Of a stretch of 64,000 nt of DNA, positions 54,707 to 63,895 are shown in pieces. The position numbers and the translations under genes were made by a program. Below the pieces are notes generated by a model that searched no databases, was not told where the DNA came from, and worked only from the letters and a program-made list of their open reading frames with translations. The stretch is taken from assembly GCF_006539865.1 (NCBI RefSeq), contig NZ_BJNV01000005.1, positions 1 to 64,000 on the forward strand, read 5' to 3'. Each line of letters opens with the position of its first letter. Within the stretch, counting starts at the first letter, position 1. This DNA is from Zoogloea ramigera. GTDB taxonomy: Bacteria > Pseudomonadota > Gammaproteobacteria > Burkholderiales > Rhodocyclaceae.

Positions 54707-54735
<29 letters not shown>
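54049..54735 (+). CDS. Class II aldolase, FucA-like (5-deoxyribulose/methylthioribulose-1-phosphate aldolase candidate)
   Basis: Zinc-dependent aldolase/epimerase family protein of 228 residues. The key residues fall at the same numbers as in E. coli FucA: E73 (SSEWRIH), H92 and H94 (LHAHSPF) and H155 (LLANHGM). FucA-type enzymes split sugar-1-phosphates into dihydroxyacetone phosphate and an aldehyde. Beside mtnA it probably splits methylthioribulose- or 5-deoxyribulose-1-phosphate (the DHAP shunt); the alternative is a MtnB-like dehydratase. CCGGAG precedes the ATG. It overlaps the next gene by 29 bases. Confidence 0.88.
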
Positions 54736-59115
<4,380 letters not shown>

Positions 59116-59116
<1 letters not shown>

Positions 59117-60264
59117 TGCACTCCATAGACAGCCACCGCCCGCTCATCCTCGTCGTTGACGACGCGCCCGACTCCATCGAGCCCATCGTCAACTGCCTGC
59201 ACAAGGCCGATTTCCGCACCCGCATCGCCACCCGGGGCGAACGCGCGCTGCAGCTGGCCGCCAGCACGCCGGTGCCCGACCTGATCCTGCTCGACGTCAC
59301 GATGCCCGACATGGACGGCTACGAAGTCTGCAGCCGCCTCATGAACAACCCGGCCACCGCCAGCATCCCGGTGATCTTCCTGTCGATCCGCAACGAAGAG
59401 CTCGACGAGCAGCGCGGCTTCGACGCCGGCGCGGTGGACTACATCACCAAGCCGATCAGCCCGCCGCTGGTCCTCACCCGGATCCGCAACCACCTCACCC
59501 TCAAGGCCGCCAGCGACTTTCTGCGCGACCGCAACGCCTACCTCGAGCAGGAGGTCGGCCGGCGCACCCGTGAGCTGGCCCTGCTCCAGGACGCCACCAT
59601 CGTCGCCATGGCCTCCCTCGCCGAGACTCGCGACAACGAGACCACCCACCACATCCGCCGCACCCAGCTCTACCTGCGCACCCTGGCCCGCCACCTGCAG
59701 CACCACCCGCGCTTCGCCGCCGAGCTCACCGAGCAGAACATCGACCTGATGTACAAATCGGCCCCGCTGCACGACATCGGCAAGGTCGGCGTGCCCGACC
59801 GCATCCTCCTCAAGCCCGGCGAGCTCACCCCCGCCGAGTTCGAGATCATGAAGCGCCACACCACCCTCGGCCGCGACGCCATCAGCAAGGCCGAAACCCT
59901 GTTCGGTGTCTCGTCGAGCTTCCTGCGCTTCGCCAAGGAGATCGCCTACTCCCACCAGGAAAAGTGGGACGGCAGCGGCTACCCCCAGGGCCTCGCCGGC
60001 GAACGCATCCCGCTGGCCGCCCGCCTGATGGCCGTCGCCGACTCCTACGACGGCCTGATCAGCCAGCGCGTCTATAAAAAAGCCCACAGCCACGCCGAGG
60101 CCGTCGCCATCCTGGCGGCCCACCGCGGTACCCACTTCGACCCGGACATCATCGACGCCTTCCTCGAGGTGCAGTCCGACTTCCAGGGCATCGCGCGGCG
60201 TTTTGCCGACGCCCCGATCGACGAGGCCGCCGAGGCCGAGCGCGTCCGGCTGATCCTCGGCTAG
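59116..60264 (+). CDS. Response regulator with HD-GYP domain
   Basis: Protein of 382 residues: an N-terminal receiver with D60 in LILLDVTMPDMDG, and a C-terminal HD-GYP domain with H219-D220 (LHDIGKVGVPD) and G288-Y289-P290 (GSGYPQGL). HD-GYP enzymes hydrolyse c-di-GMP, so signalling through the upstream hybrid kinase likely changes c-di-GMP level. The ATG overlaps the kinase stop by one base (TAATG). A diguanylate cyclase/phosphodiesterase gene follows after 121 bases. Confidence 0.92.
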
Positions 60265-60385
60265 CCGGCTGGCGCAGGCCGGCACCGCCCCTCCAGTTCA
60301 AGAATGCCCTGCCTCGACCGTTAGAAGCCTTACAGACGGGACCCGCCCCAGAGGCCCCGCGTCAGACTTCAACACAGGAGAGCAG

Positions 60386-63130
60386 ATGACCAGCAGCCCG
60401 ACACCTTCCCGGGTGTTCGCCGCATTGCGCCGCCATGGGCTGGCGCTGCTGGTGCCATGCAGCATCCTCGCCATCACCTTCGGCGGCTACCGCGACAATC
60501 TCCAGAAAGAAGAAGCCAGCCGGCTCCTGCTGTTCCAGGCCCAGGCGCGGGTGCAGGTCAATCACCTCCGCGAACGCGCCGGCAGCCTGCTCCAGCTCGC
60601 CGAGAAGCTCCACACCCTGCGCCCGGAAAGCACCGGCAAACGCCCCGACGGGCTCGGCCCGGTGCTCGCCCAGCACCCGGAGATCCTGCGCGTCGGCGTC
60701 CTCCGCAGTGGCCCCGGCGGCAGCCTCATCACCGACAGCGCCGAACCCAGCCCGTCAGGCCCCCTGCCAGCCAGCGCCGCCAGCCTGCGCGACGCCCTCC
60801 CGGCGCTGGGCGGCAAACCCATGCTCAGCGCGCCCTATGCCCTTCCGGGTGACGGCGCCCAGGGCCGCCAGGCGGTCCTGATCCTCAGCCCGCTGCCCGG
60901 TACGCGGCGAGAGTTCGCCTTCATCGAGGTCGGCACCGAGCCCCTCCTGCGCCACGGCGTCGCCCCTGACGAGGGCCTGAGCGGCGCCCCGCGTTTCGTC
61001 GTCGACGTGCTCGACACCACCGACGCGCCCCGCCCGGTGTTCACGAGCGCGGCCGCGCCCGGCAGCCACGACAGCACCACCAAGAGCCTCGGCGCCTACG
61101 CCGAAGGCATCACCCTGGCCCAGCGTCACTGGCTCGTCATCGTCAGCCCGGGCGCGGCCGCCACCGGTGCGCTGCTCGACAGCGGCTCTGGCCGCTGGCT
61201 CGTCGGCGGGCTGCTGCTCACCCTGCTGGCCATCGCCATCCAGCACACCGTGCAGAGCCGCGCCGACGCCGTGCGCCGCCAGGTGGACGAAAAAACCCAG
61301 GCCCTCGCCGAAGCCAACGACGCCCTCGGCCGCTACATCGGCGCCCTGGCCGACGCCAACCGGCGCCTCGCCAGCGAGGTCGACGAGCACGCCCGCGCCG
61401 AAAGCCAGCTGCGCGAAACCACCAGCCTGCAGCGGGCCATCCTCGACTGTGCCGAATACGCGGTGATCTACACCGACGCGAAGGGCACCATCCGGGTCAT
61501 CAACCCCGCCGCCGAGCGCCTCTTCGGCTACCGGGCCGACGAGCTGATCGACAAGGCCACGCCGCAGATCCTCCACCCCGATGAGCACGCCCCCCGCTGG
61601 ACGCTCGAAGGTAGCACCATCGGCCTGATCTCGCTCCCCCCCGGCGCCGAGAGCCACTCCGCCGAGTTCGACATGCGCCGCCGTGACGGCAGCCTCTTCC
61701 CGGCCAGCCTGTCGGTCTCCATCGTGCGCGACACGCTCGGCCAGATCCGCGGCTACCTGGGCATCATTGCCGACATCACCCAGCGCGTCGACGCCGAGAG
61801 CCGCATCCGCCACCTCGCCCACTACGACAACCTCACCTCGCTGCCCAACCGCAGCCTGCTCAACCGCCATCTCGCGGACGTCCTCAGCGCCGCCCGGGCG
61901 CGCCACCGCCGGGTGGCCGTGCTGGTCACCGACCTGGACCACTTCAAGTACGTCAACGACACCCTCGGCCACCTGGCCGGCGACCAGCTGCTGCTGGCGG
62001 TGGCCCAGCGCCTGCGCACCGGCGTACGCGACGGCGACCTCGTGGCCCGCACCGGCGGCGACGAGTTCGTCATCGTGCTCGCCGACCTCGACGAAACCTA
62101 TCTCCCCGAAGAAGCCGGCGAGCGCCTAATCGCCAGCGTCGCCCGCCCCTTCGAGCTGGCCGGCCACCAGCTCACCGTCACCATGAGCGTCGGCATCGCG
62201 CTCTATCCCCACGACGGCGTCGATGGCGACACCCTCGTCAAGAACGCCGACGCCGCCATGTACCTGGCCAAGGAGCGCGGCCGCAACCAGGCCCGCTTCT
62301 TCGATCACGGCCTCTCCAGGCGCTACAGCGAACGCCTCGAGCTCGAGGGCCGCCTGCGCCAGGCCGTCGAAGCCCGTCAGCTGGCCCTTTACTACCAGCC
62401 CCAGGTGGACACCCTCTCGGGCGAGCTGATCGGCATGGAAGCGCTGATCCGCTGGTGCCAGCCCGACGGCAGCATGGTGCCGCCCGACAAGTTCATCCCG
62501 ATCGCCGAAGAATGTGGCCTCATCGTGCCCATCGGCGCCTGGGTGCTGCGGGAGGCCTGCCGCCAGCAACAGGCCTGGCTGCAGGAGGGCATCAGCCGGG
62601 TGCCGGTGGGCGTCAACCTGTCGGCCCGCCAGTTCGACGACACCACCCTGCTCGCCACCATCCAGGCCGCCCTCGCCGAGAGCGGCCTGCCGCCGGCCTA
62701 CCTCGACCTCGAGCTCACCGAAAGCCTGGTGATGGGCAACCCCGAACACACCCGCCAGGTGCTGGCCGAATGCAAGCAGCTCGGGCTGCAGCTGTCGGTG
62801 GACGACTTCGGCACCGGCTACTCCAGTCTGTCCTACCTCAAGCGCTTCCCGATCGACCGGCTCAAGATCGACCGCTCCTTCATCGCCGACATCGTCACCG
62901 AACCCGACGACGCCGCCATCGCCCAGACCATCATCGCCATGGCCCACACCCTGCGCCTCGAGGTGATCGCCGAGGGCGTCGAGACCGAAGCCCAGCTCGC
63001 CCTGCTGCGCCGCTGGCGCTGCGACGCCTACCAGGGCTACCTGTGCAGCCGCCCCCTGCCCGCCGACGAGATGACCAAGCTGCTCCGCCAGCTCCGCGCC
63101 ACCCGCCAGGTCGCCCTCGCCAACATCTGA
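60386..63130 (+). CDS. PAS-GGDEF-EAL membrane protein (c-di-GMP turnover)
   Basis: Protein of 914 residues. Two hydrophobic segments (about 17-34 and 272-290) enclose a periplasmic sensor of about 235 residues; a coiled coil and PAS domain follow (about 345-475). The GGDEF motif is at 557-561 (ARTGGDEFVIV) and the EAL motif at 685-687 (GMEALIRW), with DDFGTGYSSLSYLK and EGVET, so both domains look catalytically competent. It may synthesise or break down c-di-GMP depending on the signal. It is intact, in contrast to the truncated relative at 46.6 kb. Confidence 0.9.
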   Translation: MTSSPTPSRVFAALRRHGLALLVPCSILAITFGGYRDNLQKEEASRLLLFQAQARVQVNHLRERAGSLLQLAEKLHTLRPESTGKRPDGLGPVLAQHPEILRVGVLRSGPGGSLITDSAEPSPSGPLPASAASLRDALPALGGKPMLSAPYALPGDGAQGRQAVLILSPLPGTRREFAFIEVGTEPLLRHGVAPDEGLSGAPRFVVDVLDTTDAPRPVFTSAAAPGSHDSTTKSLGAYAEGITLAQRHWLVIVSPGAAATGALLDSGSGRWLVGGLLLTLLAIAIQHTVQSRADAVRRQVDEKTQALAEANDALGRYIGALADANRRLASEVDEHARAESQLRETTSLQRAILDCAEYAVIYTDAKGTIRVINPAAERLFGYRADELIDKATPQILHPDEHAPRWTLEGSTIGLISLPPGAESHSAEFDMRRRDGSLFPASLSVSIVRDTLGQIRGYLGIIADITQRVDAESRIRHLAHYDNLTSLPNRSLLNRHLADVLSAARARHRRVAVLVTDLDHFKYVNDTLGHLAGDQLLLAVAQRLRTGVRDGDLVARTGGDEFVIVLADLDETYLPEEAGERLIASVARPFELAGHQLTVTMSVGIALYPHDGVDGDTLVKNADAAMYLAKERGRNQARFFDHGLSRRYSERLELEGRLRQAVEARQLALYYQPQVDTLSGELIGMEALIRWCQPDGSMVPPDKFIPIAEECGLIVPIGAWVLREACRQQQAWLQEGISRVPVGVNLSARQFDDTTLLATIQAALAESGLPPAYLDLELTESLVMGNPEHTRQVLAECKQLGLQLSVDDFGTGYSSLSYLKRFPIDRLKIDRSFIADIVTEPDDAAIAQTIIAMAHTLRLEVIAEGVETEAQLALLRRWRCDAYQGYLCSRPLPADEMTKLLRQLRATRQVALANI

Positions 63131-63201
63131 AGCATCCGCCAGAGGTGGAACACCGCAGCACGGACGGGCAATGCCGCCGCCGGCGAGCACCGGGGCCAGC
63201 G

Positions 63202-63527
63202 CTGCAAAAAGCATCAACGTCGGTGCCCCAGGGGTGCTGCGTCGCTGCAAAAAGCATCGACGTCGGTGCCCCGGGGGTGCTACGTCGCTGCAAAAAGCAT
63301 CAACGCCGGTGCCGCGGGGGTGCTACGTCGCTGCAAAAAGCATCAACGCCGGTGCCCCGGGGGTGCAACGCCGCTGCAAAAAGCATCAACGTCGGTGCCC
63401 CGAGGGTGCAACGCCGCTGCAAAAAGCATCAACGCCGGTGCCCCGGGGGTGCAACGCCGCTGCAAAAAGCATCAACGTCGGTACCCCGGGGGTGCTGCGT
63501 CGCTGCAAAAAGCATCGAAACCGGGGC
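63202..63527. repeat. Tandem array of 43-bp repeats
   Basis: Seven complete 43-base units start at 63202, 63245, 63288, 63331, 63374, 63417 and 63460. A partial eighth starts at 63503 and keeps about 15 bases. Every unit begins CTGCAAAAAGCATC; units 4 and 6 are identical, and the others differ at a few positions (for example GTC/GCC and the last ten bases). There are no spacers, so it is not a CRISPR array. The 441-base gap between the GGDEF-EAL gene and azlD holds nothing else that I recognise. Confidence 0.93.
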
Positions 63528-63571
63528 CTTTACCGGCGTTAGCGCCCCCCGCCCGAACCGGCCCCGACCCG

Positions 63572-63895
63572 CTACAGCACGGCCTTGAACAGATACAGCG
63601 CCGCCATCCCCACCGCGATGGTGGCCAGCACGTTGCCAGTGCGCCACGCCACCACCGCCGCCACCAGGGCCGCCCACGGCTTGGGGGCGGCCAGCGCGAA
63701 GGCCACCTCGCCGGCGTGGATGAACAGCTCGCTCGCCGCCAGCGCCGCAAAGCTCGCCGGGGCGATGTGGCGGCACAGGCTATGCAGCCAGCGCGGCAGG
63801 GTTCGCCCGGCGAAGAGGCCGATCATCGCGTAGCGGAACAGAAAGGTGAGCGCACCCACCGCCGCCAGCATGGCCACCAGCGCGAGCGTGCTCAC
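63572..63895 (-). CDS. azlD: AzlD family branched-chain amino acid transport protein
   Basis: A very hydrophobic protein of 107 residues with three or four helices (LALVAMLAAVGALTFLFRYAM; VLATIAVGMAALYLFKAVL) and the FRY...LPRWL segment typical of AzlD. With AzlC it forms an exporter of branched-chain amino acids. The GTG start overlaps the azlC stop in a GTGA, so the two are coupled. It converges on the repeat array. Confidence 0.88.
   Translation of the reverse strand: MSTLALVAMLAAVGALTFLFRYAMIGLFAGRTLPRWLHSLCRHIAPASFAALAASELFIHAGEVAFALAAPKPWAALVAAVVAWRTGNVLATIAVGMAALYLFKAVL

Follow-up and report, generated by a model that had tools for sequence, protein, structure and literature searches.

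A 43-bp intergenic array of Zoogloea ramigera belongs to a class of sequence-diverse arrays with a period of two helical turns

A 43-bp tandem array between two convergent genes

The window, i.e. the whole stretch of 64,000 bp of Zoogloea ramigera DNA (genome G000) that was analysed, harbors a tandem array with a 43-bp unit in the intergenic gap of the convergent PAS-GGDEF-EAL and azlD genes (Table 1). An earlier note made from the letters of this DNA had described seven full units and a partial one in strict 43-base register between these genes, and both statements were borne out: TRF reported a period of 43 with 7.4 copies, 93% matches and 0% indels, and the ends of both genes were placed on either side of the array by Pfam. 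The score of 522 was clearly the top one among the 26 TRF rows for the window. Within the span given previously, 63202-63527, the repeat stops near 63516 and positions 63517-63527 are flank. The A5 tract recurs in all eight units as claimed, while the exact core CCCCGGGG is found in full units 2, 4, 6 and 7 only (of seven). The identity of units 4 and 6 was confirmed in the unit list. With its head-to-tail copies and a unit within 10-100 bp (7.4 x 43 bp), the array has the makeup of a minisatellite or VNTR. The core word GCAAAAAGCATC occurs eight times in the 4.6-Mb genome, every time inside this array. Upstream, positions 54707-63130 hold three successive plus-strand genes, by eye a hybrid histidine kinase, an HD-GYP-like response regulator and the PAS-GGDEF-EAL protein (the one gene on which Pfam was run), which likely form a c-di-GMP signalling cluster.

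Table 1. Features of the 43-bp array and its surroundings (positions in the window)
Feature	Position	Strand	Basis or remark
43-bp tandem array, 7.4 copies, without indels	63200..63516	.	TRF, unit list
17-bp conserved core GCTGCAAAAAGCATCAA, first copy	63201..63217	.	hairpin TGC-A5-GCA
Further core copies, every 43 bp	63244, 63287, 63330, 63373, 63416, 63459, 63502		
26-bp spacer, first copy	63218..63243	.	GGTGCCCC-GGGGGTGC type, homogenised in own genome (G000)
Two dyad axes per unit	63208..63230	.	A5 centre 63208, CCCC/GGGG centre 63229.5; 21.5 bp apart
Left flank of array	63131..63199	.	homologous in G007; missing from G005 and four other species
Right flank of array (GGGGCCTTTACCGGCGTTAGCGCC)	63517..63571	.	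homology to G007 partial
PAS-GGDEF-EAL protein gene, convergent toward array	60386..63130	+	Pfam
AzlD gene, convergent toward array	63572..63895	-	Pfam

Stop-freeness of the plus strand had been put forward as a conspicuous property of the array. All three plus frames of 63202-63527 are indeed open (the minus frames contain 2, 2 and 4 stops), but their significance as reading frames found no support, because arrays of relatives contain stops (three in L003, two in L004, one in L006) and a period of 43 bp is unable to hold one frame. An open frame retained in relatives, as in a protein-coding repeat, is not seen, and the period is no multiple of three. A plus-strand stop is absent from 52% of the 43-mers of the window and from 23% of shuffled units. 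Among the 63674 windows of 326 bases, 1681 are free of stops in every plus frame. The stop-freeness of the array is incidental and ordinary for the base composition.

The EAL/azlD and thiolase/enoyl-CoA hydratase sites in related genomes

A DNA search over 60 genomes, the own genome included, gave matches in four (G000, G005, G007 and, weakly, G008, where the match is not an array). Exact patterns of 27 bases in viral contigs and of 24 bases in genome contigs had no match, and blastn of 63100-63600 against a plasmid collection had none either. A looser two-core pattern matched one viral contig and eight genome contigs, the latter being three of Zoogloea (G005/G007), one of Luteibacter with a 37-bp REP-like array and four of Bacteroidales or Spirochaetia with 21-bp arrays. 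As the search pattern itself selected these four, the shared word GCAAAAAGC (also GCAAAAAGCATC) is no evidence of kinship. The viral match, a 48-bp repeat within a frame that by eye is structural-protein-like, was rejected as unrelated. The Luteibacter array (L035:5289-5385) is composed of tandem REP-like words TGTGGGAGCCGATTCATCGGCGATG linked by GCTTTTTGCC.

The EAL/azlD gene pair is present in seven genomes. The distance between the aligned coding ends amounts to 447 bp in G000, 387 bp in G007 and 39 bp in G005, and to roughly 25-36 bp in G002, G012, G003 and G014. Between the same two genes G007 carries five 43-bp units in which the core GCTGCAAAAAGCATCAA is kept and the 26-bp spacer is different, namely of the GGAGCC-TCGAAG-CTCC type; the core is likewise conserved in the arrays of G005. 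Since the same unit family is found at the same place in the independent assembly G007, the array is a product of neither chance nor assembly. Its copy number differs at this site as in VNTRs, with eight cores in G000, five in G007 and none in G005, a comparison of species and not of strains. By EAL identity (97.9% between G005 and G007, 92.8% from G000 to each), G005 and G007 are sisters, so that the simplest history would be a gain of the array in the common ancestor followed by loss in G005; a MAG error behind the absence in G005 is possible. The slippage and homogenisation suggested in the earlier note agree well with these data: the 26-bp spacers are alike within one genome while the G007 orthologue combines another spacer with the same 17-bp core, and another array is shorter in G005 by one continuous piece of about two units.

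A second site is located between the genes for a thiolase and an enoyl-CoA hydratase (Pfam), where G005 and G007 have a 43-bp array bordered on one side by an inverted core. Both genes were present in 16 of 30 fetched loci, with a gap of 382-470 bp in the three loci that contain an array (G000, G005, G007) and of 103-185 bp in the 13 others without one. The G000 array (C9 25736-26007, L191/L197) consists of 21-bp units of the GTGCTCGCGAGCAG / CTCGCGAG type with a dyad P of 0.0005, and its words are wholly unlike the A5-type 43-bp core that occupies the same orthologous site in G005 and G007. Thus, at this site the sequence turns over while the geometry stays.

Period, dyad symmetry and position of the arrays

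Further arrays were obtained by searching 23 genomes of the genus with a sequence-only profile built from 14 units. In all 13 arrays inspected, the top lags were 21/42/63/84 or 43/64/86 bp, 43 being 2 x 21.5. When all periods between 8 and 33 bp were admitted, 7 of 13 peaks in the own genome (463 kb) and 7 of 12 in G003 (400 kb) fell within 20.5-22 bp, compared with 0/1 in G006, 0/4 in G027, 0/2 in G064 and 2/5 in G042; four codon-shuffled control stretches gave no peak. The two G042 peaks, YadA-like by eye, were set aside as coding, as was L110, by eye a coiled coil. A second scan, which covered only the gaps between called genes at a lowered threshold, yielded periods of 20.5-22 bp in 7 of 11 cases in G000, 6 of 11 in G003 and 2 of 2 in G018 (one weak), and no 21-bp array in the samples of G006 (0/1), G021 (0/1), G011 (none), G027 (0/4) and G064 (0/2). 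Some of the G000 and G003 stretches (L089, L098, L114, L121) had been picked for their profile hits; once these and the window are left out, there are still eight arrays in about 719 kb, or roughly one in every 90 kb. The array of the window is therefore not a lone minisatellite but one of a class. Words are unlike between its arrays, and differing sequences with a shared two-turn spacing hint that spacing rather than sequence matters. The equal-phase protein binding proposed earlier stays putative and is strengthened by the many other arrays of the genus that share the period of 21-21.5 bp.

Additional intergenic arrays of about 21 bp in the own genome, all with different words, are located at L102:7534-7800, L098:9126-9400, L099:3430-3720, L084:5550-5760 and L085:1760-1990. 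Zoogloea also carries intergenic arrays of the 7-bp word GGGTAGT or its complement (L089:7901, L121:8201, L120:8576), and a stretch of 8 kb (L092:1675-9735), devoid of genes according to the codon-bias caller, shows periods near 22.5 and 10.5 bp and is perhaps foreign DNA. A literature search of open-licence PMC papers with few phrasings found nothing on intergenic arrays with a 21-bp lattice or on Zoogloea minisatellites.

As 21 bp equal seven codons, some arrays may encode short heptad-repeat peptides, which we regard as the least probable of the explanations considered. Of 19 arrays, 17 have one or more of the six frames open, but frequent open frames are expected by chance for such length and G+C. 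In the 43-bp arrays the frame shifts with each unit, stops interrupt all six frames of L085 and L103, and the relatives of the window array contain stops as well. Also in favour of coding are the 21-bp-period arrays of Bacteroidales MAGs (L030, L031, L034) and of a Spirochaetia MAG (L037), each of which has an open plus frame with seven-residue repeats (e.g. EAKSIDV). These could be heptad-coding or another case of the class; a dyad excess was seen in L030, L034 and L037 (0 of 60 permutations as high) and less clearly in L031 (3 of 60).

In five arrays of G003 and G014 the unit is a 15-bp imperfect palindrome plus a 6-bp linker. Among their 43 units, 37 of 38 spacings are exact multiples of 21, in a chain search that permitted spacings of 20-23, 42 and 43, while the units are only 47-55% identical. 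Pairing between the palindrome arms exceeded shuffled arms at position 3 (34 of 43 paired versus 21 +/- 3) and at positions 3-6 jointly (114 versus 96 +/- 6, P=0.0015), and was no better than in shuffles at positions 2 and 6. A small number of ancestral palindrome types may be the source of this covariation. In the orthologous arrays L074 and L076, 34 substitutions and no closed gap were counted, while the adjoining 110 bp showed 7 substitutions along with 3 gaps; a gap of 6 bp is located at the boundary, past the last unit.

Dyad symmetry was assessed in 15 arrays with 2000 column permutations. Ten reached P<=0.0005, and the others gave 0.026 (L085), 0.043 (window array), 0.059 (L003, in which the best axis is displaced by one base), 0.21 (L084) and 0.49 (L099). 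In single units of the window array the dyad is weak and nominally significant in one of seven. This test replaced an earlier one with 60 permutations, in which 15 of 19 arrays exceeded all controls (L003, L084, L099 and L103 did not) and which also covered L004, L006, L078 and L079, not part of the later set; the dyad signal of L004 and L006 was attributed to the inverted terminal core. By their palindrome density alone, arrays could not be told apart from background.

With genes called by a simple home-made codon-bias script, the 13 intergenic 21-bp arrays of G000 and G003 lie in six convergent, seven co-directional and no divergent gaps, compared with 40, 128 and 44 among 212 background gaps (Fisher, convergent P=0.019, divergent P=0.075). 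Arrays thus favour the 3' sides of genes.

A location downstream of genes would also suit an RNA element, transcribed as the 3' UTR of a flanking gene, whose hairpins protect the mRNA or end transcription. Compared with dinucleotide shuffles, RNA of the array folds somewhat better (z of -2.3 on the plus strand, -4.0 on the minus strand and -3.2 for G007), and the G005/G007 array has the thiolase stop on one side and a terminator-like hairpin with a T run on the other. Nevertheless, an intrinsic terminator was not found in 63000-63700, RNAalifold detected zero compensatory pairs among 14 43-bp units, and strand symmetry with a two-turn DNA period is unexpected of RNA. Rfam assigned no family at its gathering score; the only hit was SNORA77 with 18.4 bits versus a cut-off of 42, and the best E value of 0.45 was below threshold. 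An RNA function is therefore improbable.

Relation to known repeats and possible role

Bacterial minisatellites and VNTRs such as MIRU or BOX (boxB, 45 bp) are single sequence families. They resemble the window array in their homogenised tandem copies, similar unit length, variable copy number and intergenic location, whereas the Zoogloea arrays combine unlike sequences with one common period. Iteron and centromere arrays place sites at about two helix turns and are bound cooperatively on one face; iterons, however, repeat one conserved site adjoining the initiator gene of the replicon, while the Zoogloea arrays share the two-turn spacing but are dispersed and diverse in sequence.

The BIME/REP elements of enterobacteria and pseudomonads are likewise mosaics of palindromic words in intergenic DNA, located at 3' ends and often between convergent genes. 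They differ in that the sequence of the family is fixed and many hosts possess a RAYT enzyme, while in Zoogloea the words vary per array, the spacing equals two helix turns and the host is without Y1 transposase. Thauera is a related betaproteobacterium. For Thauera sp. MZ1T, clustered GTAG-1 REP arrays with short stems of 5 bp are described, which flank exopolysaccharide genes and were found via a tandem repeat database (PMC3733652); they are the nearest printed relatives among the literature examined. The GTAG tag is defining in Thauera and rare in Zoogloea.

An origin of the arrays as REP/BIME elements that a RAYT (Y1) transposase has dispersed is very improbable. Palindromic words, mosaic arrays, the extragenic position at 3' gene ends (convergent in the case of the window array), the Thauera example and the tags GTAG/CTAC, six in L115 and four in L098, speak for it. 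Against it, PF01797 (Y1 transposase) is found in 9 of 23 genus genomes and has no match in G000, G005 and G007, most arrays do not carry one GTAG or CGTC tag per unit, and a 21-bp lattice takes the place of a dispersed, high-copy family of fixed sequence. The window array, with its roughly 15 half-units, has nine CGTC/GACG and other arrays have 0-4, and GTAG/CTAC occurs 0-6 times. Since its host is without Y1 transposase by Pfam, the window array is not a RAYT-driven REP.

Two accounts of the observed class, with its common period, dyads in most arrays, 3' location, and gain, loss and word turnover at orthologous sites, are close in likelihood. Tentatively, we favour the window array as a young, homogenised, BIME-like array of phased dyads, in which imperfect palindromes are set on a two-turn lattice of 21 or 21.5 bp and the spacing is under selection. 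Units would be copied in register through slippage or gene conversion, words would drift, and selection would keep the spacing. The repeated dyads on one helix face could then form a DNA platform at gene ends, with a lattice of a dimeric nucleoid protein, a gyrase or topology site, or extruding hairpins as candidates. REPs at 3' ends and between convergent genes have been linked to supercoiling and to gyrase and IHF binding (PMC1525189); the Zoogloea arrays would work like BIME with no fixed sequence, and may serve DNA topology or a nucleoid protein. Weak points are the weak dyad of the window array, the borderline result for L003 and the absence of a dyad in L099 and L084. Arm positions 2 and 6 with pairing as in shuffles, the samples of G006, G021 and G011 devoid of intergenic 21-bp arrays and the zero compensatory pairs of the 43-bp units also speak against this account.

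About as likely, if not quite, the arrays are neutral minisatellites, whose palindromic words form hairpins while the DNA is replicated and expand by slipping in register, which persist only at gene 3' ends, where they do no harm, and which owe the 21-bp period to the mutational mechanism and not to function. This would fit the strong homogeneity of the window array, a change in the length of L079 that is unit-sized, the gain and loss of arrays at one site, the 0 of 13 divergent gaps and the array-free state of both sites in most genus members examined. As the window array was lost in G005 and most of these members are without both arrays, neither array is needed. However, old arrays with 47-55% unit identity have kept the exact lattice, the 34 substitutions and 0 gaps of L074/L076 stand against 7 and 3 in the flank, a mutational cause for exactly two turns is not obvious, and other homogeneous repeats in the same genomes, such as the 7-bp GGGTAGT, have other periods. 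The lack of indels, together with word turnover at one site, slightly favours selection on spacing.

More speculative, and rather doubtful, is the wider proposal that Zoogloea contains tens of sequence-free elements in which only the dyad lattice is selected and the words change in concert, even between close species at a single orthologous site. These would be platforms at gene ends that serve either a dimeric nucleoid protein able to read DNA shape or the control of supercoiling, with the Bacteroidales and Spirochaetia arrays as independent cases. Repeat families get recognised through their sequence, and a class with sequence turnover and fixed helical geometry would escape sequence searches. 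If true, DNA geometry by itself can be conserved. With such a class one could test directly whether the intergenic repeats of bacteria serve chromosome topology or are mere debris of slippage, and a comparison is readily at hand in Zoogloea species that do or do not carry an array at a given gene pair.
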